Made by a program: the position numbers and the translations under genes. A DNA stretch of 64,000 bases, taken from positions 62,001-126,000 of the forward strand of contig CACMGP010000001.1 of the NCBI GenBank assembly GCA_902613185.1, in the 5' to 3' direction. Shown here piece after piece: positions 8,707 to 24,236 of the stretch. This stretch comes from an uncultured Alphaproteobacteria bacterium. Lineage in GTDB: Bacteria; Pseudomonadota; Alphaproteobacteria; HIMB59. The notes below the pieces were generated by a model. The model was given only the letters and a program-made list of their open reading frames with translations. It was not told the DNA's origin and searched no databases. Position 1 is the first letter of the stretch. Every line of letters begins with the position of its first letter.

Positions 8707-8708
8707 GG

Positions 8709-9542: not shown

Positions 9543-10393
9543 TTATATGAGATTTTTTTAATTGATTGATTTCGATCTAAAGTTATTAAAACATTACAAT
9601 AACTTGGTGTAGTTAATGACATCCATTTAGATAATTTTTGATAATATTTGATAAATTGGTGGAGCTTTTTTTTCAGACGAACATTACTCTTTAATGATCG
9701 AAGATCTAATTCTTGTTTATATTTCCAATCAATTACAAATTCCCAATTTGGAAATTTTATAAATATATAATAATCGAATTTTTTAAAAAGTTTTTGGTAG
9801 TCATTTAGGGCACTATTATATGCAGTTCTCCAAATTAAATTAGAGTCATTCTTCTTTTCTAAGTCATTAATGTTCATTTTTAAATATTTTATGTCGATTG
9901 GTTTTGAGCCAACACACCAACCCTCTAAAATTAACAAATCTACTTTACTAATTTTTCTTCTATAATTTTTTTTGTCGTCAGTAACTTTATCAAAGACAGG
10001 AATATAGACTGGAAATTTCTTTTTTATTAAATTATTTATTACTTTATCGAGTAATTTTAAATTGTGAGTACCAGGTACACCTCTAGTTTCAAATAAATCT
10101 GTGTTGAATTTTCTGGCCAATCGTTTTCTTTGAAAAGGTGATAGATAAAAATCATCAATACTTAATATAACAACATTCTTTGAGTAAAATTTTAGAAAAA
10201 ATTTTTTAATTAGAACTGATAAAGTAGACTTGCCTGAACCCTGGGAACCTGCAATCATAAGTGTTTTCTTATATTTTAAGTGAGATAATAATTTAAGGTA
10301 GTTATCTTTTATTTCATTATGACTAACATTCTTACCTGTTAATCTTTTCAGTGTATCTTGTGTAAATTTTAGTTTAGCTGTAATTTCTGACAT
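9539..10393 (-). CDS. D-glycerate 3-kinase (GLYK-type P-loop kinase)
   Basis: Phosphorylates D-glycerate, probably to 3-phosphoglycerate. A Walker A is seen in MIAGSQGSGKSTLS (about residues 47-58), followed by ILSIDDFYLSPFQRKRLA and the family-specific ETRGVPGTHNLKLLD; further on are PVFDKVTDDKKNY and LLILEGWCVGSKP. These match the plant/yeast GLYK-Tda10 and bacterial YggC group rather than the GarK/GlxK kinases. It is the first enzyme gene of the glucosylglycerate block, 103 bases after the permease gene and overlapping the HAD gene by four bases. In breakdown it would channel the glycerate released by the phosphorylase into glycolysis; in synthesis its product is the acceptor for the GT. 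Confidence 0.85.
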   Translation of the reverse strand: MSEITAKLKFTQDTLKRLTGKNVSHNEIKDNYLKLLSHLKYKKTLMIAGSQGSGKSTLSVLIKKFFLKFYSKNVVILSIDDFYLSPFQRKRLARKFNTDLFETRGVPGTHNLKLLDKVINNLIKKKFPVYIPVFDKVTDDKKNYRRKISKVDLLILEGWCVGSKPIDIKYLKMNINDLEKKNDSNLIWRTAYNSALNDYQKLFKKFDYYIFIKFPNWEFVIDWKYKQELDLRSLKSNVRLKKKLHQFIKYYQKLSKWMSLTTPSYCNVLITLDRNQSIKKISYK

Positions 10394-10446
10394 TAATAAT
10401 AAATATTATTTTAGAGGATATTTTACTAAAATTACATGTACCAGAT

Positions 10447-10462
10447 AAAGTAAAAATACTTT
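10447..10462. repeat. Short perfect inverted repeat in the permease-glycerate kinase gap
   Basis: AAAGTA-AAAA-TACTTT is a perfect 6-bp palindrome with a 4-base centre inside the 103-base gap between the permease gene and glycerate kinase, the largest gap in this block. It could be a weak mRNA hairpin (processing or partial termination) or an operator half-site pair. In DNA this AT-rich it may be chance. Confidence 0.25.
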
Positions 10463-10496
10463 GATATTTCGATTTAAAAAATTTAAATAACTTAAA

Positions 10497-11378
10497 TTAA
10501 CCTTTTACAGCCCCAGCTGTTAGACCACTGATTAATTGTCTTTGAAAAAACCATATAATCATAAATAGAGGAGCTGTCGCAGAAACAACACTTGATACTG
10601 CCCACATATAATTTCCGCCGTACTCTACTGTGCCGAGATAAGCATTAATTTTAGGAACCATTGTATAATTATGTTGATTAAGTAACAATGCGGTAACAGT
10701 AAAATCGTTATACGCCAACATCATGCTAAATAAACCTGCAGTAACCACTCCAGGCCACATTACTGGCATAATAATATACCTAAATGCCTGAAAATATGAG
10801 CAACCATCAATCAAAGCACTTTCATCTAATTCTTTTGGTACAGTTTTAAAAAAAGAGTACAGCAACCAAAGAGTAAATGGTTGGTTTATAGCTACCAAAA
10901 CAATAATCGTAGTTGGGAGTATTCCCCATATGTTTAATTGGAAAAAAGGAAATAAATAGCCTGATACTAAAGTAATGTGTGGCATAGCTCTAAATATCAA
11001 AGCAATAATTAGAATATAAAAAGTATATTTGAATGTTGACCTAGACAAAGCATAAGCACCTAAAGTTCCAAGAAACAATGAAATTGATACAACTGATACA
11101 GTTACAATCATTGTATTCATTGTAGCTCTTCCAAATTCGCCCTCTGTCCATGACTCTAAATACGCTCTAAATGTTGTAGTGGCGCCTGTTTCAATTAAAG
11201 TATTAAATCCACTTAAAGCATATGTCCAATCAGCTCTTGAGAAAAAATCTGCTTTTACTTTAAAGGAACCCCAGAGTGTCCAAATAAAAGGAAAAATTGA
11301 TATAGTAAGCCAAAATAATATAAAAATACTATTTACGATTATTATTTGTTTTGAATATTTATTGATTGTTTGGTTCAT
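10497..11378 (-). CDS. Sugar ABC transporter permease (MalG/UgpE type)
   Basis: An inner-membrane permease subunit of a carbohydrate-uptake (CUT1) ABC importer, 293 aa, with about six membrane helices. The cytoplasmic EAA loop that docks the ATPase reads ELDESALIDGCSYFQAFRYI and continues IMPVMWPG. The C-terminus ISGLTAGAVKG is the usual ending of MalG-like subunits. It starts directly after the stop of the MalF-like gene. The downstream glycerate kinase and glucosylglycerate genes suggest a glucoside such as glucosylglycerate or glucosylglycerol as cargo, as in the E. coli ycj locus where a GH13_18 enzyme sits beside a CUT1 transporter. Cargo is inferred only. Confidence 0.92.
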   Translation of the reverse strand: MNQTINKYSKQIIIVNSIFILFWLTISIFPFIWTLWGSFKVKADFFSRADWTYALSGFNTLIETGATTTFRAYLESWTEGEFGRATMNTMIVTVSVVSISLFLGTLGAYALSRSTFKYTFYILIIALIFRAMPHITLVSGYLFPFFQLNIWGILPTTIIVLVAINQPFTLWLLYSFFKTVPKELDESALIDGCSYFQAFRYIIMPVMWPGVVTAGLFSMMLAYNDFTVTALLLNQHNYTMVPKINAYLGTVEYGGNYMWAVSSVVSATAPLFMIIWFFQRQLISGLTAGAVKG

Positions 11379-12407
11379 TTATCTTTCAGTTTTAAATTCT
11401 TTCCAAGTTCTAATGAGCACAGGTGTAAGTAAAAAAGCTATCCCTAATATTGTTAACATTGACGTGGCTCCAGCAGAACCAAAAAGCATTTTATTTTCAT
11501 TTCTTAAGTCTTGATAAATCATCCATGATAATGATTGAGCTACACCCTCAGCAGAAAAACCAATAATAGGTTCGAAAACTCTAAAATTATCCATTAAACA
11601 GATTAGCATTATGAAAGTAGCCACAGGGTATAGATGAGGAATAACAATAAAACGAACACGTTCAAATCTTGTTGCGCCATCAATGTAGGCTGCTTCTAAA
11701 GGATCTTGTGGGACTGTCTGCAAGGCTGCATAAAAAACAACAAATGCAAATGGAGTATTATGCCATATTCCATATATAATCAGGGTTATCCATGTTAAAT
11801 TACTCGAGGCTTTTAAGGACAGATTAGGGTCATCAAAAAGAATTTGGATACTGGCTCCAATTATTCCTTGAGAGTCAATCATCCAAAACAACACTAAAGA
11901 ACCAATTAAAGGTGTTACAATCATTGGTAAAATTGTACCAAATACAATTAGACCTTTTAGACTCTTTGCTAAAGTATTGACACTTAAAGCTACTATAAAA
12001 CCTAATACTATCACTGGTGGAGTAACAGCAAAACAAAATGTTAGTGTAAATAATAATGCTTTATAAAAAGGGAGATTTAAAACAATATCTTTGAATTCAC
12101 CGATTGATGACGTGTTATCCCATGCTTCTCTTATTTCATCAAAAGCTAAGTGATTTCTATCAGTATAAGTGCCAAAGCCATTAAATCTGCCTAAAGGATT
12201 TTCAGCCTCTATTTTTTCTGTAGCTTCTACATCTACTCTAACATTTGTAGTACACCCAAATGGATCACAATTTTCCACCTCCATAAGAACCTGTTCATTT
12301 TCAATATGAAGGGATTGAAAGAAACTAGAAACAATTGGTAAACCTATAAACAAAATCATGGCCAGAGCTGTAGGTAAAATAAACCAAAAGAAAGTTCTGT
12401 GAGGCAT
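11379..12407 (-). CDS. Sugar ABC transporter permease (MalF/UgpA type)
   Basis: The second permease of the CUT1 importer, 342 aa. After the first helix (FFWFILPTALAMILFIGLPI) comes a periplasmic segment of about 75 residues with two cysteines in ENCDPFGCTTN, which may form a disulfide. The EAA loop is PLEAAYIDGATRFERVRFIV followed by IPHLYP. The remaining helices fit the MalF core. The gene ends immediately before the MalG-like start and is 70 bases downstream of the binding-protein gene. No nucleotide-binding subunit (MalK/UgpC) is encoded anywhere in the block. Confidence 0.92.
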   Translation of the reverse strand: MPHRTFFWFILPTALAMILFIGLPIVSSFFQSLHIENEQVLMEVENCDPFGCTTNVRVDVEATEKIEAENPLGRFNGFGTYTDRNHLAFDEIREAWDNTSSIGEFKDIVLNLPFYKALLFTLTFCFAVTPPVIVLGFIVALSVNTLAKSLKGLIVFGTILPMIVTPLIGSLVLFWMIDSQGIIGASIQILFDDPNLSLKASSNLTWITLIIYGIWHNTPFAFVVFYAALQTVPQDPLEAAYIDGATRFERVRFIVIPHLYPVATFIMLICLMDNFRVFEPIIGFSAEGVAQSLSWMIYQDLRNENKMLFGSAGATSMLTILGIAFLLTPVLIRTWKEFKTER

Positions 12408-12477
12408 TATGTTTTTTTTGTAAGAAAGTGTGGAACTTAACTAAGATCCACACTTAATAGAATTAATTATCTTTGGT

Positions 12478-13713
12478 TTATAAAAAACCCTGCTCAGTAG
12501 CCTTAGCTATGTAAGCAGCTTCAACGTCAGCTAATGCTTTTTCGGCTGACTCATTACCTTGAAGAAATTCCACAAGTTCTGTACTTAAAGCTCCGTGCAT
12601 TAAGCTCATGTGTGGAAAACTAGGGTAAGGTGTTGTGCCTCTACTTGCTGCGTCAACAACAGGACCTGCTGTATCACCAGGTGTGTAACCTTTAATCAAC
12701 CAAACAGTTGCATTTGGGTTGTTATTGGCTAAATCAGTTGATGAAGCAGCTCCAACCAAAGCTCTAAATGAGGACTCTGCGTTTTCATCAGATGTATTTG
12801 TTGCAATTGCAATTCCATCCCACCACAGAGTAGTTGCTGGCTTGTTTCCACCGCCCACAGTTGGTGAAGGTGCTAATCGTGTATCAGCTTTGATATTTTG
12901 ATCACCTTCGTCATCAAGTAAAGAAGCTGCACCTGAGTTCCAAATATGCATTAATGCAACATTACCAGACTCCCATTCTTCTTTAACAGCATTAGTATCT
13001 TGTGTTAAAAAGTCAGGATTACTTAGCTCAGTTAATTTTTTAATAACATTAAGTGCTGCAACACCTTTTTCATTATTCACGTTAGGTTGTGCAGAACCTG
13101 ATTTAAAAAACTCACCACCATGACCAAGATACATATTTACAAACTCTTGACCAAGATTCCATCCAGATTTGAAAGCTCCTGCATATGGATTTTCCATTAC
13201 TCCAGCTGCTTTAATTTTTTCAGCAGCAGCAATTACTTCTTCATAAGTAGAAGGAACAGCTATGCCTAAATCGTTAAGAATACTCTCTCTGTACCAAAGA
13301 TGTTGTGCGTTAGCCATAAATGCTACAGCATAAATCTTACCATCAATTGTAATCTTTTGGTTATCATTTAAGTTTGACCCATATTTTGCAACTAAATCAT
13401 CTAGTGGACGAATTAAACCGTCATTCATTAAAGGTGTAATTGAACCATTAGTAACTAATTTTGCAGAAAATTCAGCAGGGTTTGCTGATAAAGCAGCTAC
13501 TTGTAATTTATTATGGTCAACAGAGTGCGTGACATTAAAATCCGCATCTGGTCCAGCACAACTTTTTACTTCATCCATAAAAATTCTGTATGTAGTAAAT
13601 TCGTTAGCTAAAATATTTATTGAACCGCTTGTTACACCACAAGGTGAATGGCTACCTGCAAAAACACTAGTAGATGCAAAAGAGATCAATAGAGCTATTA
13701 TTAGTTTTTTCAT
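12478..13713 (-). CDS. Sugar ABC transporter periplasmic binding protein (family 1)
   Basis: A 411-residue extracellular solute-binding protein with signal peptide MKKLIIALLISFASTSVFAG. The mature protein has the family 1 layout: GSINILANEFTTYRIFMDEV as strand 1, NDGLIRPLDDLVAKYG, YAVAFMANAQHLWYRESIL (the hinge strand with aromatic ligand contacts) and VPSTYEEVIAAAEKIK. Two cysteines (CGVTSG and KSCAGPDAD) near the N-terminus could pair. It is the promoter-proximal gene of the block and has a good Shine-Dalgarno sequence, consistent with high expression of binding proteins in oligotrophic marine bacteria. The ligand is inferred from downstream genes to be a glucoside such as glucosylglycerate. 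Confidence 0.92.
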   Translation of the reverse strand: MKKLIIALLISFASTSVFAGSHSPCGVTSGSINILANEFTTYRIFMDEVKSCAGPDADFNVTHSVDHNKLQVAALSANPAEFSAKLVTNGSITPLMNDGLIRPLDDLVAKYGSNLNDNQKITIDGKIYAVAFMANAQHLWYRESILNDLGIAVPSTYEEVIAAAEKIKAAGVMENPYAGAFKSGWNLGQEFVNMYLGHGGEFFKSGSAQPNVNNEKGVAALNVIKKLTELSNPDFLTQDTNAVKEEWESGNVALMHIWNSGAASLLDDEGDQNIKADTRLAPSPTVGGGNKPATTLWWDGIAIATNTSDENAESSFRALVGAASSTDLANNNPNATVWLIKGYTPGDTAGPVVDAASRGTTPYPSFPHMSLMHGALSTELVEFLQGNESAEKALADVEAAYIAKATEQGFL

Positions 13714-13716
13714 TTA

Positions 13717-13725
13717 TTTCCTCTT
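13717..13725 (-). promoter_or_regulatory. Ribosome binding site of the sugar-binding protein gene
   Basis: On the minus strand AAGAGGAAA lies a few bases before the ATG at 13713. Most genes in this window have no such purine-rich site, so its presence supports both the start choice and strong translation. Confidence 0.6.
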
Positions 13726-13824
13726 CTTTTTGTTAATAAAAAGTTATTTTTAAAAAACTATACTAAATAAAACAAAATTTAAATGTAAGAGAAATGGTCG
13801 CGGAAATTATTATGTTATTCTCTT

Positions 13825-14244
13825 TTATCTAAAACTAAGGCCCATTTGTTCGAAAACACCATGGTTATCGACCATCACATAATTATCCATAAATTTGCCA
13901 TTTTCTATTGTCCAAAAATCAGAAAACTGCATTTTAATTGTCTTTCCAGTTGGTTTTACACCTAGATAAGTTCCGCTATGAGTGCCGGTTAAATAACCTG
14001 TCGCACTTATCCAATTACCTTCTGCGACAACAATATCATTTTTTACATGATAGTCTGGAAACGCTGCATAAAAAGGTTTAAGAACCTTATATTTAAAATT
14101 TTCAATACCGTGTATATCACCAAAACCTGGAGGTCCATGCCAAATCATATCATCATTCCAATATTTATGCTGTGCCTCTAAATCTTGTGCATTTAAGGCA
14201 TCGTACATATTTTGCAATAGTATTTTACTTTCATTTAAATTCAT
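13825..14244 (-). CDS. SnoaL-like (NTF2-fold) protein, single domain
   Basis: A 139-residue SnoaL/ester-cyclase-like protein. It has the short hydrophobic pocket fold of this family: KILLQNMYDALNAQD, then YWNDDMIWHGPPGFGDIHG, FYAAFPDYHVKND, the TGTHSGTYLGVKPTGKTI strand pair, and the closing FMDNYVMVDNHGVFEQMGL. The IWHGPPGFGDIHG segment is shared in modified form with the second domains of the tandem SnoaL genes at 15.5 and 20.4 kb (WWGPGGIGA and WYGPCGIGT), so these are relatives. Members catalyse aldol cyclisation, hydrolysis or isomerisation, and many are non-enzymatic binders. It follows the tandem-SnoaL gene with a 4-base overlap. The actual substrate is unknown. Confidence 0.87.
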   Translation of the reverse strand: MNLNESKILLQNMYDALNAQDLEAQHKYWNDDMIWHGPPGFGDIHGIENFKYKVLKPFYAAFPDYHVKNDIVVAEGNWISATGYLTGTHSGTYLGVKPTGKTIKMQFSDFWTIENGKFMDNYVMVDNHGVFEQMGLSFR

Positions 14245-15380
14245 TTTTTTTCTCCTAAAATTTGTATTAAGATTGCCAATTCATTGAAACCAGTCCATTC
14301 TTTTGTAATTTTATTATTTTTAATTTCCCATTGTGTAATACCCCAAAGATAACACTCTTTATTAGATGGCTTTCCATAAATTCCATTTCCTTTGTGAGTT
14401 CCAACAGCACCCCAACGAATTGATACTAAATAACCGTCTTTACTATTTCCCATCCAATATAGATCTTCAATACTTAATGCAAGATCAGGAAATGATGCAA
14501 TTAATGAAATTATAAAATGTTTCAGCTTAGGTATTCCAACAAATTTTCGACTAGTTGATCCTTCAAATTTTATATTTTTTGTATAAACACTATCAATAGC
14601 AGAAAAATTTCTTCTATTCCAAATAGTATCAAAAACCGCATGAACAAATTCTCTAATGTTTTTAATTTTATCAGGTATCGCGAAGCTTATAGGCTTTAAC
14701 TTTTTAATATTTCTTTTGGGTTTTGAATTTCTAAAATCAGGAGCAAATGGACCAATATTTCCTTTATTAGCAATTTGTTTTGCTACTTCATTTAAGTCTA
14801 AGCCTAATTGTTTTATTAAACCTGCGGTATCATAAACAACATTTTCGTAATATATTTCATTATTTTTTGCTACACAGTTTGCAATACAGAACAACCTAAC
14901 TGATTTACCTGTTGGTTTCGCAAAATTGCTATAACCAGTGTTAGTGCCCGTAATTATAGTTCTATGTGAAGTATGAAAACTTGTTTTGTCGTTTCCTGCC
15001 CATATTACCTCATCAGCGTATAATCGAATATTCGGGAAGGCGTTATTAGTATGAACTGTATCAGAGACAATTTTTTCAGATCCGAATTGTAAACCAAGTT
15101 CATCCCAAACACGACATTTTGGGCTATAAGTATCGTATATATAGCCTATATTTTTTTCTTCCCATATGCTGTATGTAATTCTGACAATATAATCAATAAT
15201 ATTTTTATATTGTTTTTCAAATCCCTGCATTGACTGAAATGGTAAATTTTTAGGATTTGGATTTAAAGATTTAGCATTACCACCTCCACCATAAGATTTA
15301 AGAGAAATATCAAAATTTTTTGGCATATGATGATCTTTTAAAGGGATTGGTTTTAAATCTTTAATTAAAGTTTTTTTCAT
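14241..15380 (-). CDS. Tandem SnoaL-like protein (type A)
   Basis: A 379-residue protein with two SnoaL/NTF2-like domains, about 65-200 and 245-375, after a basic N-terminal extension. Domain 1 contains IVRITYSIWEEKNIGYIYDTY and HTSHRTIITGTNTGYSNFAKP; domain 2 has FVHAVFDTIWNRRNFSAIDSVY and IRWGAVGTHKGNGIYGKPSN. It is paralogous to the gene at 18313-19284: both share the ITY.IWE start, the cysteine-containing IANCVAKNNEIY/IADCACKNNKVY strand and the Q-L-x-(L/I)-D segment linking the domains. It is cytoplasmic by appearance. Tandem SnoaL architecture with loss or divergence of one active site is common, but the residues needed here are not known to me. Confidence 0.85.
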   Translation of the reverse strand: MKKTLIKDLKPIPLKDHHMPKNFDISLKSYGGGGNAKSLNPNPKNLPFQSMQGFEKQYKNIIDYIVRITYSIWEEKNIGYIYDTYSPKCRVWDELGLQFGSEKIVSDTVHTNNAFPNIRLYADEVIWAGNDKTSFHTSHRTIITGTNTGYSNFAKPTGKSVRLFCIANCVAKNNEIYYENVVYDTAGLIKQLGLDLNEVAKQIANKGNIGPFAPDFRNSKPKRNIKKLKPISFAIPDKIKNIREFVHAVFDTIWNRRNFSAIDSVYTKNIKFEGSTSRKFVGIPKLKHFIISLIASFPDLALSIEDLYWMGNSKDGYLVSIRWGAVGTHKGNGIYGKPSNKECYLWGITQWEIKNNKITKEWTGFNELAILIQILGEKK

Positions 15381-15474
15381 AAATAAATTTACTAATACTA
15401 TTAAATAAAATTCAAAGCAATAATTTATTATAAATGAATACTATTATTTTTTCTTTTATATTATAAATAAACTA

Positions 15475-16479
15475 ATGTCTGATTTTCAGAAAGAAAAATT
15501 ATTAGTATTAAACTTTATAAATGAAGTTGATAAAGCTAGTGAAGATAACTTAATTGAAATAATTTCTAAGTACACATCTAAAAATTTTAATATGAAATGT
15601 ACACATCCTTTTAACGAGATTATAGGTATTGAAGAATTTGCAACAAAATTTTGGTTTCCTATAAAAAAATCATTTAAGCCTATCCAAAGAAGAATGGATA
15701 TCTTTTATGCTGGCACAAATTTAGTTGACAATCATTCTTCAAAATGGGTTGTGAATATGGGGCATTTGCTTGGAAGTTTTAATTTTCCTTTTTTTGACAT
15801 TAAACCAAATTTTAAGACTGTAATGTTATGGTATTGTGAATTCTATAAAGTAGAGGATAACAAAATACAAGAAGGTGCTTTTTTTTTAGACATTTTAAAA
15901 TTTATGCAACATTTAAATTTATCAGTTGTCCCAGAGTCAACGGGGATGATTGGCTTTAATCCAGGACCTAAAACACATCAGGGTTTATGTTTTGAAAAAC
16001 AAAGTGAAAAAGAAGGAAAGAAAACTCTTGACCTTATAATGAGAATGGCAAATCGATTAATTGGTGAAGGGATGAGGACAACAATTCCTGATTTACAAAA
16101 AGATTGGCACGAAGACATGATATGGTGGGGACCTGGGGGTATTGGTGCGTCATATACCTATGAAGGTTATTTAAAAGGTCACACGGGCCCTTTTGAGGAT
16201 AATTTAGATTTTATTGATTTCTCCGGACATATACTTGAAAACTCGGAGGGTAATTATGGTGGATGGTTTGGTTGGCCAAATTTAAAAATGAAACCAAAAG
16301 GTAATTACATGGGTTTCAAACAAGACACAGATCTTGTTGGGGAGATGAGAGTTGTTGACCTTTATAGAAGAGATGGAGATAAAATAGCAGAAAATTGGAT
16401 ATTGATTGATCATCTTCATTTTTTAAAATGTGTGGGTATTGATTTGCTTGAGAGAAATAAAAATGAAAATTCTAAATAA
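15475..16479 (+). CDS. Tandem SnoaL-like protein (type B)
   Basis: A 334-residue protein with two SnoaL-like domains (about 10-150 and 180-325), transcribed away from the type A gene at 14241. Domain 1 shows CTHPFNEIIGIEEFATKFW and MGHLLGSFNFPFFDIKPNF; domain 2 shows DWHEDMIWWGPGGIGASYTY and ends NWILIDHLHFLKCVGIDLLE. It is clearly paralogous to the gene at 20362-21456, which has [17 protein letters not shown] and [15 protein letters not shown] at equivalent places. The 3' end overlaps the convergent MetE-like gene by 8 bases. Function unknown; part of the accessory catabolic-looking cluster. Confidence 0.85.
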   Translation: MSDFQKEKLLVLNFINEVDKASEDNLIEIISKYTSKNFNMKCTHPFNEIIGIEEFATKFWFPIKKSFKPIQRRMDIFYAGTNLVDNHSSKWVVNMGHLLGSFNFPFFDIKPNFKTVMLWYCEFYKVEDNKIQEGAFFLDILKFMQHLNLSVVPESTGMIGFNPGPKTHQGLCFEKQSEKEGKKTLDLIMRMANRLIGEGMRTTIPDLQKDWHEDMIWWGPGGIGASYTYEGYLKGHTGPFEDNLDFIDFSGHILENSEGNYGGWFGWPNLKMKPKGNYMGFKQDTDLVGEMRVVDLYRRDGDKIAENWILIDHLHFLKCVGIDLLERNKNENSK

Positions 16480-17602
16480 ATTTAGAAGCGAGTTTAGTAC
16501 CCTCCACTAATGCATTAAGTTTTTCATAACAAATATTTTCATCAATTTTTCCAAAACCTGCAAAAGTACTAAAGCCACAATCAGTCCCAGCCATTAATTG
16601 ATCTTTAGGTACTACTGTTGAATACTTTATTAATCTTTCAGCTACTACTTCTGGGTGTTCTACAAAATTAGATGTAGAGTCAATTACACCAGGTACTAAC
16701 ACTTTATCTTTTGGTAATTTTATTTCTTCAAAGACTTTCCACTCATGTGCGTGACGAGGATTAGATGACTCAATTAAAAAATATTTAATTTTTGATTTTA
16801 AAATTATAGGTAATATTTTTTTAAGAGCAATATCATGAGTATGTGGTCCCTCATAATTGCCCCAACAAATATGCATTCTCGTTTTTTCAATATCAACATT
16901 TATTAAAGCATAATTTAAACACTCAATTTGCATTTCAGCTTTTTTTAAAAAATCCTCCTCAGATAGATCTTTAAAATTCATATGCCTAGCTAGGGCTAAA
17001 TCTGGACAGTCTAATTGAACATGAATATTTGCATTAGTAATTTGTTCGTATTCATTTGCCATAATACTAGAGAGTTTATTTAAGTATTCATCATCACTAG
17101 CATAAAATTTATTTGGCATAAAAACATTAATAACGCCCGGTGATGCTGCATTCATAAATGCTTTTGCATGATCATACTTTTTTAAGGCGTTGCTAAAATT
17201 TTCAATATCATTTAACAAAGAAAAATTATCTTTTATTTTTAATTCATTGGTGCAACATGGTCTTGAGTAAGTAGGTGTTCCACCACTAATAGCTAACTTT
17301 TCTTTATAATCTGGAAAATCGTCTAAATCGGCAGGTGCTCTTCGTTCACTTTCTCCTGAAAAACCATCAATTCTATCCTTAATATAAGTGGCATAACTAA
17401 TCTTGCTCATCTCACCGTCACTTATGAAATCTAACCCAACTTCAAGTTGTCTTTTTACAATTTGTTCAACATTTGAGCTTAAAATATTTCCAAATAATTT
17501 TTTGTTGTATTCTTCACCCTTATCCTTGGCAAAGAGATATTCTGATAGTTCTTTGGATCTTGGTAAGCTCCCAACGTGTGTTGTCAAAATTTTAGATGCC
17601 AT
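16472..17602 (-). CDS. MetE-like cobalamin-independent methionine synthase family protein
   Basis: A 376-residue protein corresponding to the C-terminal catalytic barrel of MetE, without the N-terminal half, as in many stand-alone MetE-like proteins. It begins ILTTHVGSLPRSKEL and has GLDFISDGEMSKISYATYI. The zinc ligands appear retained: MHICWGNYEGPHTHD supplies His-x-Cys, a glutamate lies in YFLIESSNPRHAHEW, and the last cysteine is in LMAGTDCGFSTFAGFG. Such proteins transfer methyl groups between a donor and a thiol, or act in degradation of methylated compounds. True methionine synthesis is not implied because neighbours are catabolic-looking and the folate-binding half is absent. It starts five bases after the stop of the RraA-like gene's partner strand neighbour and reads in the same direction. 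Confidence 0.82.
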   Translation of the reverse strand: MASKILTTHVGSLPRSKELSEYLFAKDKGEEYNKKLFGNILSSNVEQIVKRQLEVGLDFISDGEMSKISYATYIKDRIDGFSGESERRAPADLDDFPDYKEKLAISGGTPTYSRPCCTNELKIKDNFSLLNDIENFSNALKKYDHAKAFMNAASPGVINVFMPNKFYASDDEYLNKLSSIMANEYEQITNANIHVQLDCPDLALARHMNFKDLSEEDFLKKAEMQIECLNYALINVDIEKTRMHICWGNYEGPHTHDIALKKILPIILKSKIKYFLIESSNPRHAHEWKVFEEIKLPKDKVLVPGVIDSTSNFVEHPEVVAERLIKYSTVVPKDQLMAGTDCGFSTFAGFGKIDENICYEKLNALVEGTKLASKFI

Positions 17603-17607
17603 AATAA

Positions 17608-18309
17608 TTATGAATTGATAAATTGTTTATACTTATCTAAGAATTGTTTTTTCGAAAATTTTTTATTTTTTCTTAAGAAATCAAAAATTATTTTTTCTTT
17701 TTTTATCATTTTTTTAATGGCCAATGGTAATTCAATTAAAAAGTCTCTTTTTATTATAACAGCACCGTGTATGTCTGCATGAATAAGGTCGTCAGGTCTT
17801 ACTTTCATATTAAAAATATCAACATTGCAATTAATTTTATGAATTTGATTGTATCCATGCCCTACTCTTATTTCACCACTTAATATTTGAAACTTTCTAT
17901 TTATCTCCTGTAAATCTCTCATTGCTCCGTTTGTTATAGCTCCAACAAATCCAAAATTTAAATGTATATATGCATTAAGTTCACCCCACCATGCACCAAT
18001 TGTATTTGTCTTATCCTTATCCTCGATAACACAAATCTTAGGGTAGTTTCCTTCGAACATATATTCATAATATTTATCTCTATTTTTTATTATATTTGTA
18101 TTTTTCTTTTTTCTGGATGTAATAATCGCTGTTTTGGCAAAACCAATAATTGGTTTTAAACTCGGATTTAGACAATGCATTGTTTTTTGTGTGTGTCCTT
18201 TTGATCGTAGAGTTGGATCTAATAATTCTAGTGAATTTGAGATAGTTGGAGTGTCAAAATTTCTAATGTATTCAATTATTTTCTTTTCTGTTTTTGTTAG
18301 TAGTTTCAA
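17608..18309 (-). CDS. RraA / HMG-aldolase family protein
   Basis: A 233-residue protein of the RraA-like fold, which includes 4-hydroxy-4-methyl-2-oxoglutarate aldolases and oxaloacetate decarboxylases. The hallmark region is GFVGAITNGAMRDLQEI (with the Arg-Asp metal/substrate pair), followed by VGHGYNQIHKINCNVDIFNM and VRPDDLIHADIHGAVII. AWWGELNAYIHLNFG is the subunit-interface segment. The C-terminus is unusually basic. It sits between a SnoaL gene (3 bases upstream) and the MetE-like gene (5 bases downstream), so it is probably in a bicupin-SnoaL-RraA-MetE-like transcript. A retro-aldol or decarboxylation step on a small 2-oxo acid is the natural reading; the RNase E-inhibitor role of E. 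coli RraA is unlikely here. Confidence 0.82.
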   Translation of the reverse strand: MKLLTKTEKKIIEYIRNFDTPTISNSLELLDPTLRSKGHTQKTMHCLNPSLKPIIGFAKTAIITSRKKKNTNIIKNRDKYYEYMFEGNYPKICVIEDKDKTNTIGAWWGELNAYIHLNFGFVGAITNGAMRDLQEINRKFQILSGEIRVGHGYNQIHKINCNVDIFNMKVRPDDLIHADIHGAVIIKRDFLIELPLAIKKMIKKEKIIFDFLRKNKKFSKKQFLDKYKQFINS

Positions 18310-18312
18310 TTG

Positions 18313-19284
18313 TTATCCAGTTTTTAATAAAATTTGTTTCCAAATTATTGTTTCATCAAACAGAACCCACTCATTTTTGATCCCTCTTGGACCAAATTCA
18401 GCCTGAGATATTCCCATTATATGAACATTTGCATTACTAGGATCAGAAAATAATCCGGGTCCTGAATGAATTCCCTCTAATGACCATCTAATGGATGCCT
18501 TTTTATACTCATTTTTTTCCTCTAAATAGCTTACATGTTCAACTCTAAAAATTGAATCCGGAAACATAGATCTTAGTGAAGACCAAAAAATCTTTACCTC
18601 ATCTACCCCTAATGCTTTTGTGCCTCCAGGCTGTTCTTGATTGACTGATCGATCATAAACTTTATCTATTATGTTAAAATTATTATTAAATATTTCCTTT
18701 AAAATGTTAGCATAATCTATTCCAGTATTATTTGTTGAGATCGGTATTTGTATATATTTTACTTCATGTGAGGTATTGTTATTAAAGGGAGCTGGGCATT
18801 TATCTTTACCGCCTTGATTTTCAATTACATTTGCTGCATGTTTTTTAGGATCAATGTTTAACTGCCTCACAATAGCACCCTGGTCTCTTACAAGCCATTC
18901 ATCGTAAACCTTGTTATTCTTGCAAGCACAATCAGCTATTACTCGATACTTGAGAGTTTTACCAGTAGCTTTTCCATAAATACCATCATTTAAATGCGTC
19001 GCCTTAGATAAAATTCTATGTGATGATAAATATCCATGTTCTTCATTACCAATCCAAATAACATCTTCGCCTAATAACTGTCGATCTGGAAATTCATTCA
19101 AAGTGGCATAAGTAGCCTTCACTACAGCATCTGGGCCATATATCACACCGTCTGGAGACCTAACTGGAATACCCTCAGCATAATAGTCTCTAATTGACTC
19201 AACATCTTTATTTTCCCAAATTTGATATGTTATTTTAAATATATAATCTGGTAGATCTAAAAATTTATTATCAAAACCTTTCAT
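18313..19284 (-). CDS. Tandem SnoaL-like protein (type A paralogue)
   Basis: A 323-residue two-domain SnoaL-like protein, paralogous to 14241-15380 but lacking its N-terminal basic extension. Domain 1: YIFKITYQIWENKDVESI, VIWIGNEEHGYLSSHRIL and GIYGKATGKTLKYRVIADCA; domain 2: VYDRSVNQEQPGG, SLRSMFPDSIFRVEHV and IRWSLEGIHSGPGLFSDPSN. The domain linker PKKHAANVIENQGG parallels NEVAKQIANKGN of the other copy. It starts 2 bases after the bicupin stop and ends 3 bases before the RraA-like start. Function unknown. Confidence 0.85.
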   Translation of the reverse strand: MKGFDNKFLDLPDYIFKITYQIWENKDVESIRDYYAEGIPVRSPDGVIYGPDAVVKATYATLNEFPDRQLLGEDVIWIGNEEHGYLSSHRILSKATHLNDGIYGKATGKTLKYRVIADCACKNNKVYDEWLVRDQGAIVRQLNIDPKKHAANVIENQGGKDKCPAPFNNNTSHEVKYIQIPISTNNTGIDYANILKEIFNNNFNIIDKVYDRSVNQEQPGGTKALGVDEVKIFWSSLRSMFPDSIFRVEHVSYLEEKNEYKKASIRWSLEGIHSGPGLFSDPSNANVHIMGISQAEFGPRGIKNEWVLFDETIIWKQILLKTG

Positions 19285-19286
19285 TA

Positions 19287-20261
19287 TTAGAGGTTTTTTT
19301 GTCGTATAATAAAGATACTTCCTTCTTGATTACTAATATTTTTTAAACTTCTAGTTGAACCTCTTGGAGACGAGAAAGAGTCGTTTGGTCCAATTATGGT
19401 TTTTTGATCATTGCAAGTTACTTCCCATTCACCATCTAAACATAAATAAACTTCAGACTCTTTTAATGTGTACGGATGAATATGAGCATTATTACCTTTT
19501 AACATCGTCAAACCAAAGCCTGTATTATGGTCTATGTTTGGCTCAAAATCTTTATTATGAACATTAAAATAGTCAAGGTAATTTAAAATTGAATTAGAGT
19601 TATAATGCTCATCATCTTTTAAATATTTATCCTTATTTTCATAACGGATTACATATTTTTCAATTTCTTCAGAAGTGTAATGATCGAAAGACTCCAGATC
19701 TTTTTCTTTAATAGGTTCAAGGGCAACTTTCCCATCTGGAATTTTATTTTTATCAAGATCAATTAAGGTATTATCATTTAATAAAACCATTCCAGACTCT
19801 TTTGCTTTTTCTAAAACTTTTGGTGTCCATGTTATCACACCGGGATCATTTTCTCCTAGGACAACAAATATTAATGCTTTTTCATCACTAACATTTTGAA
19901 ATCCCCGAAACATATTAGTGGGAAATGAAGCAACATCTCCTTTGTTTAAAACTACTTCGCCCTCTTTACCATCTGCGCCCCAATAAAAGCGCCAAGAACC
20001 TGAAAATATCAAAAATACTTCTGCAGTAGTGTGGCTATGAAGTCCCGATCCATTCATTGGAGCGGCACTTACTGCACCTATATTGAAACCATGTTCTTCG
20101 GCTATTTTGACGTTTTGCTTGGTATCCTCACTCACTCCAGGACCAACTATAGAATAATTCAGTCTATCTTGATGCCCTTTGAGCTTACCTTCTACAAATG
20201 GAATTTTACTTGGGACTAGCTCATTAAATTTTACCAAACGACTGTTAATATCCTGCGTCAT
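19287..20261 (-). CDS. Two-cupin protein
   Basis: A 324-residue protein with two cupin barrels. The first has HSHTTAEVFLIFSGSWRFYWG and GDVASFPTNMFRGFQNVSD (metal site His-x-His, Glu, and a weak last position where His is replaced). The second has HIHPYTLKESEVYLCLDGEW and FSSPRGSTRSLKNIS, again with His-x-His and Glu but no obvious final His. Bicupins include gentisate/oxalate-type oxygenases, isomerases and decarboxylases. The gene is divergent from the SnoaL gene at 20362 and leads a SnoaL-RraA-MetE-like set. Activity cannot be assigned. Confidence 0.83.
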   Translation of the reverse strand: MTQDINSRLVKFNELVPSKIPFVEGKLKGHQDRLNYSIVGPGVSEDTKQNVKIAEEHGFNIGAVSAAPMNGSGLHSHTTAEVFLIFSGSWRFYWGADGKEGEVVLNKGDVASFPTNMFRGFQNVSDEKALIFVVLGENDPGVITWTPKVLEKAKESGMVLLNDNTLIDLDKNKIPDGKVALEPIKEKDLESFDHYTSEEIEKYVIRYENKDKYLKDDEHYNSNSILNYLDYFNVHNKDFEPNIDHNTGFGLTMLKGNNAHIHPYTLKESEVYLCLDGEWEVTCNDQKTIIGPNDSFSSPRGSTRSLKNISNQEGSIFIIRQKNL

Positions 20262-20345
20262 TAATTAGATTTTAAATTTCCACATATTGCTAAATATTAT
20301 TTAAATTATAAAGTTAATCAAAGTAATATTTATTTATTTTATATA

Positions 20346-20352
20346 GGTGAGG
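20346..20352 (+). promoter_or_regulatory. Ribosome binding site deciding the start at 20362
   Basis: GGTGAGG lies 9 bases before ATG 20362. It includes the in-frame GTG at 20347 that could be mistaken for the start; its placement over the Shine-Dalgarno sequence argues for the downstream ATG. Confidence 0.6.
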
Positions 20353-20361
20353 CAATATAAC

Positions 20362-21456
20362 ATGAGCGAAATTAAAAATTTTGATACTGGTATCCCAATT
20401 AAAAGTGGAGCAAAAATTATAAATTTGGACCCTGAAGAAAATATATTAAATAAAAAAAAAATTAGAAATCTTCTCAAAAAAATTTCTGAGTCCAAAGATA
20501 GTGATTTAAGTCAAAATATAAAGAATGCATATCATGAAGATGCTGAAATCTATGCATTCCACCCTGTAAATCATATAAAAGGCATTGATGAAATAATTAA
20601 TACCCTTTGGAAACCTTTACTGAATTCTTTTCCAGATTTAGAGAGAAGAGATAATTTAATAATTGGAGGGAGTTTTCAAGATAGGGTTTATGTCTCAACT
20701 GTTGGTCATTTGACTGGCACTTTTGTCAATCCATGGTTAGGAGTTCCCTCCAATGGTAAAACTATTCATTTACGAATTTGTGAAGTTCATCAAATTGAAA
20801 ATGAAAAAATAATCAATTCTCATGTGTTAATTGATATTATGGATTTCATAAGGCAAGCAGGTTTTTGGCCAATTAATTCATCTTTAGGTATAGAAGAAAT
20901 GTGGCCAGGACCCATTACTGGAGACGGAACAACTTTTGAAAACCTAGACTCTGATTTATCAGCTAGAACCCTTGATCAGGGTCTTACGATGCAAAGAAGT
21001 TTAGATATAAAACCAGAAACTGAGACTGGAGCTACTAAAGATAGTGTCAGACAGAAATTAATTAACCATCCTCAAAAAGATTATTGGCATCCGAAAATGA
21101 TGTGGTACGGACCATGTGGTATAGGCACTGCTAGAGGTTTAAAAGGTTTTATTGAGCATCATCAGCTACCATTTAGATTGACGTTTAAAGAGAGAAATTA
21201 TTGGAAAATTGGTCATTACATTGAAATAGGTGATGGTAATTATTCTATGACAGGTGGTTGGCATAGTATTCAAGCTACACACGGTTCAAGTGATTGGCTA
21301 GGGTATGAACCTACTAATAAATTAGTTACTATGAGAGTGATGGATTTTTATTTACATAATGAGGGTCTTATTAGGGAAAATTGGGTACCAATAGATATTG
21401 TCCATATTTTATTTCAATTAGGAATAGATGTGCTCGAATTAGTTCATAAGAAATAA
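20362..21456 (+). CDS. Tandem SnoaL-like protein (type B paralogue)
   Basis: A 364-residue two-domain SnoaL-like protein, paralogous to 15475-16479. Domain 1 has [36 protein letters not shown] and [14 protein letters not shown]; domain 2 has [40 protein letters not shown] and [20 protein letters not shown]. The start ATG is chosen over a GTG five codons earlier because of the ribosome binding site. It is followed after 2 bases by the HisD/HpsN-like gene, so the SnoaL protein, the dehydrogenase and the SDR form one plus-strand operon with the HAD gene. Function unknown. Confidence 0.86.
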
Positions 21457-21458
21457 AA

Positions 21459-22784
21459 ATGACAGTTGAATTTATCAAAAAAAGCTTAAATGAAAAACAA
21501 AGAGCTGAAGAAAACAATAAAGTTAAAGCAGTAGTTGAGAACACTTTAAAGGAAATTGAATTAAAGGGAGATAGCTATGTAAGAGAATTATCAGAGAAAT
21601 TTGATAAATACTCACCTAGTTCATTTAGATTATCTGAAGATGAAATAAGTAAATTAGTCGATGAAGTTTCTGATAATGACAAAGAGGATATTAGATTTGC
21701 ACAAAAACAAGTTCGATCGTTTGCTGAGGCACAATTAAAAAGTTTAAGTGAAATTGAAGTAGAAACTCAACCAGGTGTAATTCTTGGACATAAAAACATA
21801 CCTGTTCAATCTGTTGGCTGTTATGTTCCTGCTGGAAAATTTCCAATGGTGGCATCAGCTCATATGTCTGTAGTCACTGCTTCAGTTGCTGGAGTTCCTA
21901 GAATAATAGCAACAACACCACCCTATCAAGGAAAACCAAATGCTGCTGTAGTTACAGCCATGAAAATGGGAGGAGCACATGAAATATACGTTTTAGGTGG
22001 AATGCAGGGTGTTGGAGCTATGGCTATTGGGACTGAAAGCATAGAACCAGTAGATATGATTGTTGGTCCTGGAAACGCATACGTTGCGGAAGCAAAAAGA
22101 CAATTATTTGGTAAGGTTGGTATCGATTTATTTGCTGGTCCTACTGAAACAATGATTATCTGCGATGATACTGTAGATGCAGAGATATGTGCTACAGATC
22201 TTCTTGGACAAGCAGAACATGGTTATAATTCACCTGCAATAATGATTACTAATTCAAGAGATTTAGCATCAGAAACAATAAAAGAAATAGATAGACTGCT
22301 CAAAATTTTACCAACAAAAGATACTGCTGGTGTTAGCTGGAAAGATTATGGTGAAATAATTTTGTGTGAAAGTTATGATGAGATGTTAATGAAAGCTAAT
22401 GAAATAGCTTCAGAGCATGTTCAAGTTATGACAGATAGAGATGAATGGTTTTTAAAAAATATGACATCTTATGGAGCACTTTTTTTGGGTGCAAGAACAA
22501 ATGTTGCGAATGGGGATAAAGTAATAGGAACAAACCATACTTTACCGACAAAAAAAGCTGGAAGATACACAGGCGGTTTATGGGTTGGTAAATTTATAAA
22601 AACTCATACTTATCAAAAAATTACAACTGATGAAGCAGCTACAAAAATTGCAGAATATGGATCAAGATTATCATATTTAGAGGGTTTTATAGGCCATGCC
22701 GAACAATGTAATGTCAGAGCAAGAAGATATGGTGGTATTAATGTAGCCTATGGAAAACCAGTATCTAAAATTAAAACTAAGTAA
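21459..22784 (+). CDS. Histidinol-dehydrogenase-family protein, HpsN-like
   Basis: A 441-residue NAD-dependent zinc dehydrogenase of the HisD superfamily. Retained features are [17 protein letters not shown], the nucleotide-binding [26 protein letters not shown], the zinc and catalytic residues in [29 protein letters not shown] and [18 protein letters not shown]. No other histidine-biosynthesis gene is near, and the [15 protein letters not shown] segment differs from ordinary HisD. It therefore probably belongs to the catabolic branch that includes HpsN (2,3-dihydroxypropane-1-sulfonate 3-dehydrogenase), which oxidises a primary alcohol to an acid. The adjacent SDR would fit an HpsO-type step, but the sulfonate substrate is a guess. 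It overlaps the SDR start by one base (TAATG). Confidence 0.85.
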
Positions 22785-23551
22785 TGTATTTAAAAAGTTT
22801 AAGTCTCAAGAAAAAAATAGCACTTGTGACAGGTGCGGGTAAGGGTATTGGAAGAGCTTCAGCTATTGCTTTAGCAGAAGCTGGTGCTGATTTAATAATT
22901 TTAAGTCGCACTGAAAAAGATCTTATTAAAGTTAAAAAAGAAATAAACAAATTAAAAAGAAAATGTGAATTTTATGTTTGTGATTTATTTGATTTTGATC
23001 AAATAACTGAAGTTTTTTCAAAAATTAATAGATTAGATATTTTAGTAAATAATGCGGGAACAAATATACCTGAGTTTTTTAACAAAATTAAAAAAGAAGA
23101 TATGGATTATATGGTTGATTTAAATTTGAAAGCATCTTTTCATGTTGCACAATTAGCATCCAGAAAGATGTTAAAGTCTAAAAATAGAAAAACAATTGCA
23201 GGAAGTATCATTAATATGTCCTCTCAGCTAGGCAAAGTTGGAGCACCAAATAGAAGTACTTACAATATGACAAAATTTGGTATTGAAGGGTTAACTAAAG
23301 GAATGGCTCTGGATTTAGCTTCAAAAAATATTCGTGTCAATTCTGTTTGTCCAACATTTGTTGAAACTCCAATGGTAAAAAAGTTTTTTATTAATAAAAA
23401 ATTTAAAAAAGAAACTTTAAAAAATATACCTCTTGGTAGATTAGCTACTGAAAGTGATGTAGCTACTGCGGTTGTATATCTGGCATCAAATGGTTCATCA
23501 ATGATTACAGGGTCGTCGATAGTGGTAGACGGTGGTTGGACTGCTAAATAA
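22784..23551 (+). CDS. Short-chain dehydrogenase/reductase
   Basis: A 255-residue classical SDR. The NAD(P)-binding motif TGAGKGIG, the NNAGTN motif and the catalytic serine with YNMTK (Tyr and Lys) in MSSQLGKVGAPNRSTYNMTK are all present, and the C-terminal GSSIVVDGGW is typical. Following TGAGKGIGRASAIAL the strand-2 end is ILSRTEKD, and the Arg there suggests NADP use, though weakly. Coupled to the HisD-like gene by TAATG, so it probably oxidises or reduces an alcohol/ketone in the same pathway. Confidence 0.9.
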   Translation: MYLKSLSLKKKIALVTGAGKGIGRASAIALAEAGADLIILSRTEKDLIKVKKEINKLKRKCEFYVCDLFDFDQITEVFSKINRLDILVNNAGTNIPEFFNKIKKEDMDYMVDLNLKASFHVAQLASRKMLKSKNRKTIAGSIINMSSQLGKVGAPNRSTYNMTKFGIEGLTKGMALDLASKNIRVNSVCPTFVETPMVKKFFINKKFKKETLKNIPLGRLATESDVATAVVYLASNGSSMITGSSIVVDGGWTAK

Positions 23552-23582
23552 AATTAGTAATTAACAAAGTTAAGATAATTTT

Positions 23583-24236
23583 ATGAAGGCAATAATTTTT
23601 GGATCTATAGGAACTTTAGTAGAAACGTCTGATATTCAAAGACAGTCATTTAATCAAGCATTTAAGGAAATAGGACTAGATTGGTATTGGGATAAAAATA
23701 ATTACAAAAATTTACTTAAAAAGTCAGGGGGAAGAAATAGAGTTGAATATTTTGCTAATATTAATCAGAACACAGTAGACTCAAAAAAAATTAGAGAACT
23801 AAAAACTCAATATTTTAACAGATATTTAAATTCTAATATTATTAATCCGAGAGAGGGTGTTTTAGAGGTAATTAAATATGCTAAATTAAACAATATTAAA
23901 ATTGGTCTAGCATCAACGACTACAATTGAAAATATAGATGCTATTTTCACAACTCTAAAAGATAAAATAATAAAAACAGATTTTAATTTTATTGGGAACA
24001 GTAAACTAATAAAAAAAGTAAAACCTTACCCAGATATATATTTTGAAGCCCTTAAAAAATTAAGTGTAAAAGAAAATGAGTGCATAGCAATAGAGGACTC
24101 AGTTGAGAGTGCATTATCAGCTAATAAAGCTAAAATAGAATGTATCGCATTTCCAGGACTATTTCATATGGATGATGATTTCAGTTTTTGTAAAAAATGT
24201 TTGAATAAATTAGATATTTCAATTTTTGAAAATTGA
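23583..24236 (+). CDS. HAD-superfamily (CbbY-like) protein lacking the nucleophile aspartate
   Basis: A 217-residue protein with the fold of HAD-IA phosphatases such as CbbY/beta-phosphoglucomutase. Motif II (LASTTTIEN), motif III lysine (KKVKPYPDIYFEAL) and motif IV (IAIEDSVESALSANKA) are conserved. Motif I, normally F-D-x-D-G-T, reads AIIFGSIGTLVETSD, so both aspartates (positions 7 and 9) are replaced by Gly and Ile. The DNA reads this without frameshift. The protein can hardly be an ordinary phosphatase; a binding, regulatory or altered catalytic role is likely. It is the last gene of the SnoaL/HisD-like operon, 31 bases after the SDR. Confidence 0.82.
   Translation: MKAIIFGSIGTLVETSDIQRQSFNQAFKEIGLDWYWDKNNYKNLLKKSGGRNRVEYFANINQNTVDSKKIRELKTQYFNRYLNSNIINPREGVLEVIKYAKLNNIKIGLASTTTIENIDAIFTTLKDKIIKTDFNFIGNSKLIKKVKPYPDIYFEALKKLSVKENECIAIEDSVESALSANKAKIECIAFPGLFHMDDDFSFCKKCLNKLDISIFEN

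Follow-up and report, generated by a model that had tools for sequence, protein, structure and literature searches.

What would a streamlined bacterium do with nine domains of a single fold, encoded almost side by side? The question is raised by a gene cluster at positions 13825–24236 of the window, by which we mean the whole 64,000-nucleotide stretch of DNA analysed here, from an uncultured alphaproteobacterium of the order HIMB59. The window has a guanine-plus-cytosine content of 29.6%, and its source genome measures 1.35 Mb in 11 contigs and is 92% complete. An earlier note, made from the sequence alone, had read five genes of the cluster as nine SnoaL/NTF2-like domains and their neighbours as MetE-like, RraA-like, bicupin, HisD-like, short-chain dehydrogenase/reductase (SDR) and nucleophile-less HAD genes. 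Pfam matches bear out both statements, the first together with a hand-split alignment. We find that the cluster is part of a mobile cassette (10497–24236), which moves as a unit through many other bacteria. Its likeliest role, to which we give a probability of about 0.55, is the import and degradation of a polyhydroxylated, sugar- or cyclitol-like compound, possibly methylated, without phosphorylation or oxygenases. The substrate class, the order of steps and each reaction are what we infer.

A mobile cassette at a tRNA gene

The cassette comprises the following genes and is bounded by a tRNA gene (ABC, ATP-binding cassette):

10497..11378, minus strand: ABC permease 2, CUT1/MalFG type (MSP2); PF00528
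11379..12407, minus strand: ABC permease 1 (MSP1); PF00528
12478..13713, minus strand: sugar-type solute-binding protein (SBP1); nearest solved chains 1eu8, 5iai
13825..14244, minus strand: single-domain SnoaL-like protein (SN1); PF07366, 86 bits
14241..15380, minus strand: tandem SnoaL protein A (SNA); PF07366, two stretches
15475..16479, plus strand: tandem SnoaL protein B (SNB); PF07366, two stretches
16472..17602, minus strand: MetE-like protein, catalytic domain only; PF01717, 51 bits; zinc ligands kept
17608..18309, minus strand: RraA-like protein, probable aldolase; PF03737, 61 bits; R-D-L-Q-E
18313..19284, minus strand: tandem SnoaL protein C (SNC); PF07366 and PF12680
19287..20261, minus strand: bicupin; Cupin_2, two stretches; first cupin with H75, H77, E81
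20362..21456, plus strand: tandem SnoaL protein D (SND); PF07366, two stretches; start ATG 20362, alternative GTG 20347
21459..22784, plus strand: HisD-fold dehydrogenase, apparently of a third type; PF00815, 444 bits; G-K-F-P-M
22784..23551, plus strand: SDR; PF13561, 196 bits
23583..24236, plus strand: HAD-like protein without the Asp nucleophile; HAD_2, 82 bits
24273..24349, minus strand: tRNA-Arg (TCT), cassette boundary; found by ARAGORN; empty site in L233

The packing is as tight as had been described, with same-strand neighbours within 13825–24236 lying −4 to 31 bp apart; the three strand switches measure 94, −8 and 100 bp.

How far does the unit extend? The flanks of the site were checked in six genomes of the genus, three of which are informative. 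One has an empty site (G013, L233), with a kinase-like gene that is cut by the contig start and ends at 574, the tRNA at 585–661 and LivG from 725. In a second (G011, L234) the same site holds about 9.8 kb of other genes (L234:1565-11418) with a phage-type integrase and, at the far edge, a 48-bp copy of the tRNA end. The third (G020, L235) holds the cassette at 92% DNA identity. As for the remaining three, the flank genes lie nearly 1 Mb apart (G001) or on different contigs (G007), or neither finds a match (G014). Because empty, other-island and cassette versions of one site can be compared, the cassette is seen to span 10497–24236, and tRNA-Arg(TCT) is an integration site and hot spot in the genus. 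The gene set given before thus stands, while its limits do not: the true start is the permease gene at 10497, and the importer and the island boundary had been missed. A second copy of the tRNA end was not found at the left edge of the cassette (best 20/48 matches, 10301–11000). Different genes follow HisD in the order's other family (L043, L072), where the cassette would therefore sit elsewhere.

Do the genes stay together in relatives? A protein search with SND gave 127 loci, of which the best 80 were fetched; 47 are full-length, that is 21 kb or longer, and counts among them are conditional on SND, by which the loci were chosen. SBP1, MSP1 and the MetE-like, SNC, bicupin and HisD-type genes occur in all 47 and MSP2 in 45, SN1, SNA and SNB in 39 each, and the SDR, HAD and RraA genes in 25, 18 and 16, respectively. 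Within the genus, the HisD-type gene is present in 15 of 25 genomes that are each at least 80% complete (85–100% identity), and SND in the same 15. The SNC search covered three of these positives (G000, G020, G023), which all have the gene, and gave no match in the ten genomes that have neither HisD-type nor SND. One of the ten is 99% complete in a single contig (G001); the other nine are drafts, in which a single absence may be no more than a gap. The order's genomes divide into two families, in agreement with a published account of HIMB59 (PMC10734472, cited, like the other papers below, from the excerpts available). Across them, a HisD match at E ≤ 1e-90 occurs in 70 of 91 (identity is at least 77% in 63 and 46–48% in 7) and an SND match at E ≤ 1e-40 in 68 of 91.

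The cassette is also found far from the order. At E ≤ 1e-40, 24 genomes out of 289 from the Alphaproteobacteria match SNC, in 20 genera out of 218, and the 20 genomes outside the order were covered in stretches of up to 20 kb, eight of which are under 15 kb at contig ends. These 20 loci span twelve families by their labels, with importer and enzymes together, in rearranged order, in eight. The bicupin is present in all 20, the MetE-like gene in 17, the HisD-type gene in 16 (one at 43%), and the SDR gene in 15. SBP1 is seen in 14, once as a match of just 25% identity, and contig ends truncate several of the loci. On plasmids, 23 records have an SND match, of which ten were examined. Eight of these carry SNC and the set (three from Ruegeria, the others from Octadecabacter, Paracoccus, Marinovum, Ensifer and Rhizobium), and in all eight we see the importer, the HisD-type, SNC and bicupin genes, a LacI regulator and a hydrolase, with RraA in seven and the MetE-like gene in six; MSP2 is 47–63% identical to its plasmid orthologues. 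Reduced versions exist as well: on a Vibrio pelagius plasmid the importer and four tandem SnoaL genes remain, and a plasmid of the archaeon Halobellus limi carries a MetE-like gene together with five SnoaL genes, of which four are tandem and one is single. No SnoaL set is present at another eight plasmid loci, which were fetched via HisD or MetE alone.

Taken across the full-length loci, the other families, the plasmids and the genus, the prediction that these genes travel together in relatives is confirmed. Since streamlined open-ocean bacteria, which shed most optional genes, keep the cassette, its substrate is probably common in seawater. The cassette is shared with cultured Ruegeria strains, which makes the question of its function testable by gene deletion. 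A record titled Euryarchaeota archaeon isolate ARS96 (L073) holds a cluster of the L072 type with 64% SND identity; it is probably a misbinned contig.

The SnoaL proteins

Pfam places one SnoaL stretch in 13825–14244 and two each in 14241–15380, 15475–16479, 18313–19284 and 20347–21456. All five proteins pass PF07366 with 37.9 to 86 bits against a gathering score of 28.4, and the nine hand-split domains align at pairwise identities of 12–32%. The density of the fold is local, because six of the eight PF12680 matches in the whole genome sit in the cluster. Two paralogue pairs had been described, and both exist: SNA and SNC (14241/18313) are 32% identical over 326 amino acids (E 1.5e-54), SNB and SND (15475/20362) 29% over 331 (E 5e-46), and in each pair N half best matches N half and C half C half. 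The pairs, which had been called duplicated, are old ones with orthologues in other orders and do not stem from recent copying.

This is seen in a tree of 22 tandem SnoaL proteins. An Octadecabacter orthologue falls with SNA (support 99/97), genes of Ruegeria, Octadecabacter and Vibrio with SNB (100/100), those of roseobacters and Vibrio with SNC, and Ensifer with SND. The SnoaL genes of Ruegeria conchae number five and, judged by length, repeat the one-plus-four layout, but only some are orthologous to those of the window: among its tandem genes there are members of the SNC and SNB groups, another joins genes of Octadecabacter and Vibrio in a further group, and one forms a long branch that is unplaced. 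The four tandem genes of the haloarchaeal plasmid (L096:12760-19153) group together (96/98) and lie beside the MetE-like gene.

Are these proteins enzymes? SN1 has a conserved C-terminal Asp, which we take to be the SnoaL acid/base, and eight of the nine domains have Asp in this column, the C-terminal domain of SNA having Asn. All five SnoaL genes are under purifying selection, as judged from the ratio of nonsynonymous to synonymous change (dN/dS). Its mean is 0.05–0.12 for SBP1 and the SnoaL, MetE-like, RraA, bicupin, HisD-type and SDR genes and 0.19 for HAD, in relatives at 78–98.9% identity with 9 to 68 pairs per gene; synonymous distances exceed 1, near saturation, in many divergent pairs. 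The SnoaL proteins, which even the reduced versions retain, would most plausibly catalyse dehydrations, isomerisations or retro-aldol reactions. It could be argued instead that they mostly bind ligands, scaffold or sense, and that the dehydrogenases, the cupin and the aldolase do the pathway. The SnoaL/NTF2 fold also serves binding, the domains share as little as 12–32% identity, and at E ≤ 0.01 there is no solved relative for SND and a single weak one for SNC. The near-constant Asp, the purifying selection and the four SnoaL genes of the reduced Vibrio version speak against this alternative, which we regard as unlikely.

As members of the SnoaL/ester cyclase family PF07366, the proteins are ordinary in that each passes the Pfam cut-off and the Asp recurs; they differ in being fused in tandem, with four orthologous groups in one catabolic-looking cluster. 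The multi-step handling of one scaffold that had been suggested would fit these orthologous groups and the selection on all five genes. Two SND matches in the order (G034:C1:192928-194028 and G027:C13:978-2021) contain one in-frame TAA each, which points to possible decay in some genomes.

A HisD-type dehydrogenase and its enzyme partners

The gene following SND opens up a different reading, in which the cassette degrades an organosulfonate, dihydroxypropanesulfonate (DHPS) or another, and the HisD-like gene is HpsN. The protein aligns full length with HpsN (phmmer, 370 bits), its best solved relatives are sulfopropanediol 3-dehydrogenases, and the adjoining SDR gene belongs to PF13561, the Pfam family of HpsO. 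Moreover, a SAR11 HpsN, whose motif is not seen in the excerpt, is reported to be active on R-DHPS (PMC11131964). HpsN has the motif G-R-Y-A/S-H, a His126 that binds the sulfonate, and catalytic Glu318, His319 and Asp352 (PMC11382572). In the alignment, read by eye, Q251, H254, E319, H320, D353, K354 and H413 of the window protein fall on the zinc-binding and catalytic residues of CpHpsN and are kept, whereas the motif is G-K-F-P-M, with Met130 at the His126 site.

How general is this exchange? The motif could be compared in 149 HisD-family open reading frames (ORFs) from loci of overlapping sources, which are not all independent: 128 have G-K-[FY]-P-M, 16 have G-[LM]-A-S-Y as in a separate HisD type, four have R-Y-N-N or R-N-N-Y, and one is too short. 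G-R-Y-A/S-H occurs in none of the 148 readable ORFs, most of which were fetched via the cluster and thus form no survey of HpsN. Loci in which the HisD gene is replaced (L040, L041, L068, L091) have Asn or Tyr at the His126 site. Among the window genes scanned there is no match to PF00107/PF08240 (hpsP-type), leaving the hpsO/hpsP pair of neighbours incomplete. With Met at the sulfonate-binding site and no hpsP-type partner among those genes, identity with HpsN was rejected and the earlier hint of sulfonates is weakened; organosulfonate degradation by the cassette appears quite improbable.

Is the protein then a histidinol dehydrogenase? It scores 431 bits against TIGR00069 (cut-off 243.8), and the genome has a second HisD-like gene at C3:99001, 29% identical and kept in 24 of 25 genus genomes. 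As the zinc and catalytic residues are kept while His126 is Met, and the motif is distinct from that of the separate HisD type, the protein appears by its residues to be a third type, distinct from the genome's HisD and from HpsN. Compared with the HpsN/DHPS clusters of PMC11382572 and PMC11131964, as far as the excerpts describe them, it shares the HisD fold, the zinc and catalytic residues, probably a four-electron alcohol oxidation, and an SDR partner. The differences are the Met in place of His126 and the company of SnoaL, cupin, MetE-like and CUT1 importer genes rather than HpsP and sulfolyases. This has a practical side, since an ocean transcript survey counts HpsN by a cut-off of 167 bits against R. 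pomeroyi HpsN (PMC11131964). At 370 bits the HisD-type protein may be counted as DHPS metabolism in such homology-based surveys, whose hpsN figures for streamlined marine bacteria may then combine more than one kind of gene.

The HisD-type gene is also found without SnoaL genes, at 73–74% identity, next to a TRAP-TAXI importer, LacI and SDR genes (L099:12001-14186, L100:12001-14191). This suggests a small intermediate, shared by the two routes, as the substrate of the HisD-type enzyme and the SDR. In the pRL8 transcriptome, formamidase and SDR genes are induced in the pea rhizosphere (PMC3333776); we have taken these as the genes near the Rhizobium HisD-type gene, for which the excerpt names no substrate.

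MetE carries a zinc-ligand pattern His-x-Cys ... Cys. The MetE-like protein of the cassette has it as H244, C246 and C342, and these three do not vary among 14 bacterial and archaeal sequences. It has no N-terminal MetE domain, and it reaches at best 98.2 bits against the curated methionine synthase model (cut-off 406); another PF01717 gene of the genome scores 113 bits. Epoxyalkane:coenzyme M transferase (XecA/EtnE) was rejected on distant similarity only, 28% identity over 40% of the query to the Xanthobacter Py2 2-hydroxypropyl-coenzyme M lyase and 23% to a gene of Mycolicibacterium chubuense NBB4, presumably EtnE. The likeness of the MetE-like protein to MetE and XecA lies in the zinc ligands, its difference in the absent domain, the low curated score and the distant similarity to the lyase.

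Could this gene be a demethylase for O- or N-methylated aromatic or heteroaromatic compounds, and these the substrate? Some neighbourhoods point that way. Novosphingobium US6-1 has MetE-like and NTF2 genes near aminomethyltransferase, methylene-tetrahydrofolate reductase, purU, ligA/extradiol dioxygenase and folD-type genes, Halobellus limi an aminomethyltransferase-family gene about 9 kb from its SnoaL genes, and the Vibrio pelagius set adjoins sarcosine oxidase and purU genes. However, the annotation of six plasmid loci gives no ring-cleaving oxygenase within the block, the importer and regulator families are sugar types, and the MetE-like gene is missing from some versions. A methylated aromatic or heteroaromatic substrate has, in our estimate, a small chance.

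The RraA-like protein passes PF03737 (60.8 bits, cut-off 24.5) and its translation contains RDLQE, which fits the R-D-x2-E/D motif that we take as the class II aldolase pattern; curated aldolase cut-offs are not reached. In the first cupin of the bicupin, H75, H77 and E81 are invariant columns in 19 sequences. Motif I of HAD enzymes carries the nucleophilic Asp, and the HAD-like protein has GSIGT in its place in all 34 ORFs compared, of which some share a genome, so that a conserved non-phosphatase role is likely as judged from this motif.

A proposed non-phosphorylative route and its rivals

What does the importer tell us about the substrate? SBP1 is nearest to the trehalose/maltose-binding protein 1eu8 and the sugar ABC transporter chain 5iai. 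With an SBP_bac_1 domain and two BPD permeases, the system is of the CUT1 sugar-importer type, of which the MalK-type ATPase is present in relatives and absent from the window's cassette. Six of the 80 relatives have a MalK/UgpC-type ATPase gene immediately behind HisD, which ties the importer to the enzymes; in one of the six (L025) two ORFs of 158 and 181 amino acids take this position. The genome's ATPase nearest to that of L014 is 72% identical and lies outside the cassette at C2:137244, and ATPases elsewhere in the genome may serve the window's importer. A LacI regulator stands beside the set in 32 of the 47 full-length loci, in 16 of 20 other-family loci and in all eight plasmid loci. 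Other versions add lactonase-like genes: an alpha/beta hydrolase nearest to 3-oxoadipate enol-lactonase (101 bits to PcaDC, 85 to PcaD) in all eight plasmid and 12 of 20 other-family loci, and an amidohydrolase nearest to L-fucono-1,5-lactonase (123 bits) in two and one of them. In the six annotated plasmid loci, the conserved block carries no gene labelled as a kinase or an oxygenase.

The importer, the regulator and the lactonase-, aldolase- and dehydrogenase-like genes, with no annotated kinase or oxygenase in the block, fit a non-phosphorylative catabolism of a polyhydroxylated compound. In such a route the ABC importer would bring in the sugar- or cyclitol-like compound, and the SDR would oxidise a ring hydroxyl or hemiacetal. 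Lactonase-like hydrolases could open lactones, in the versions other than that of the window. SnoaL-fold proteins and bicupin might then contribute one dehydration, isomerisation or retro-aldol reaction after another, the HisD-type enzyme would take a primary alcohol to the acid with 2 NAD+, and the RraA-type aldolase would cut off a small keto acid. The MetE-like enzyme, finally, may remove a methyl group, or open an electrophile, by a zinc-bound thiolate. Non-phosphorylative sugar-acid pathways with L-fuconolactonase-type amidohydrolases are similar in importer, LacI, SDR, RraA-type aldolase and some lactonase-like genes; they differ in that the cassette has tandem SnoaL proteins and that no IlvD/EDD-type or enolase-type dehydratase is seen. 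That no described pathway has this set is borne out in the literature searched, with most subscription papers outside it; PMC9040609 and PMC10100984, checked for relevant terms, are not about this set.

Several points weigh against a degradative route of this kind. The case for the SnoaL proteins as putative enzymes rests wholly on residue conservation, and all partner-gene scores lie far below the NCBIfam cut-offs. The window's own cassette has no regulator, lactonase-like genes or ATPase, and LacI regulators and CUT1 importers also serve non-sugars. The MetE-like gene is missing in 2 of 8 plasmid and 3 of 20 other loci, and RraA or SDR in some versions. Because such versions exist, and the Vibrio pelagius plasmid has importer and SnoaL genes only, not every step is obligatory. 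The Octadecabacter plasmid also carries a TauD-type dioxygenase gene, outside the block and beyond a transposase gene.

Might the cluster instead build something, a small natural product or an osmolyte? SnoaL cyclases are best known, as the Pfam name suggests, from polyketide biosynthesis. An importer accompanies the set, though, and the six annotated plasmid loci show no gene labelled polyketide synthase or exporter within the block, which leaves a biosynthetic cluster very improbable.

Within the degradative reading, one further idea is speculative. Without metal or cofactor, the SnoaL/NTF2 fold might replace Fe-S and enolase-type dehydratases and perform several steps in a row on a single compound abundant in the sea. 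Mycosporine-like amino acids and gadusol, as methylated cyclitols, would be examples, with the MetE-like protein as a demethylase independent of B12. These compounds have a cyclohexene ring, a vinylogous methyl ether and a hydroxymethyl group. If true, a SnoaL-based route would suit iron-poor, sunlit water.

Upstream of the cassette, at 5769–10393, genes for an alpha-amylase-domain enzyme and for HAD phosphatase-like and kinase-like proteins form an operon that looks like one for a glucosylglycerate-type osmolyte. That the cassette's importer serves this operon was rejected on two counts. L234 keeps the kinase-like gene with no cassette or importer match between it and tRNA-Arg, and L041- and L072-type loci pair a diverged importer (40–52% identical) with the same enzymes, the importer, SDR and HAD all lying upstream of these. 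Promoter and terminator scans gave fewer matches than in shuffles and are uninformative. In the flanks of 28 loci, recurring unlabelled ORFs are mostly shadow ORFs without a clue to the substrate; by eye, a GMC oxidoreductase recurs in three loci and an aldehyde dehydrogenase in three.

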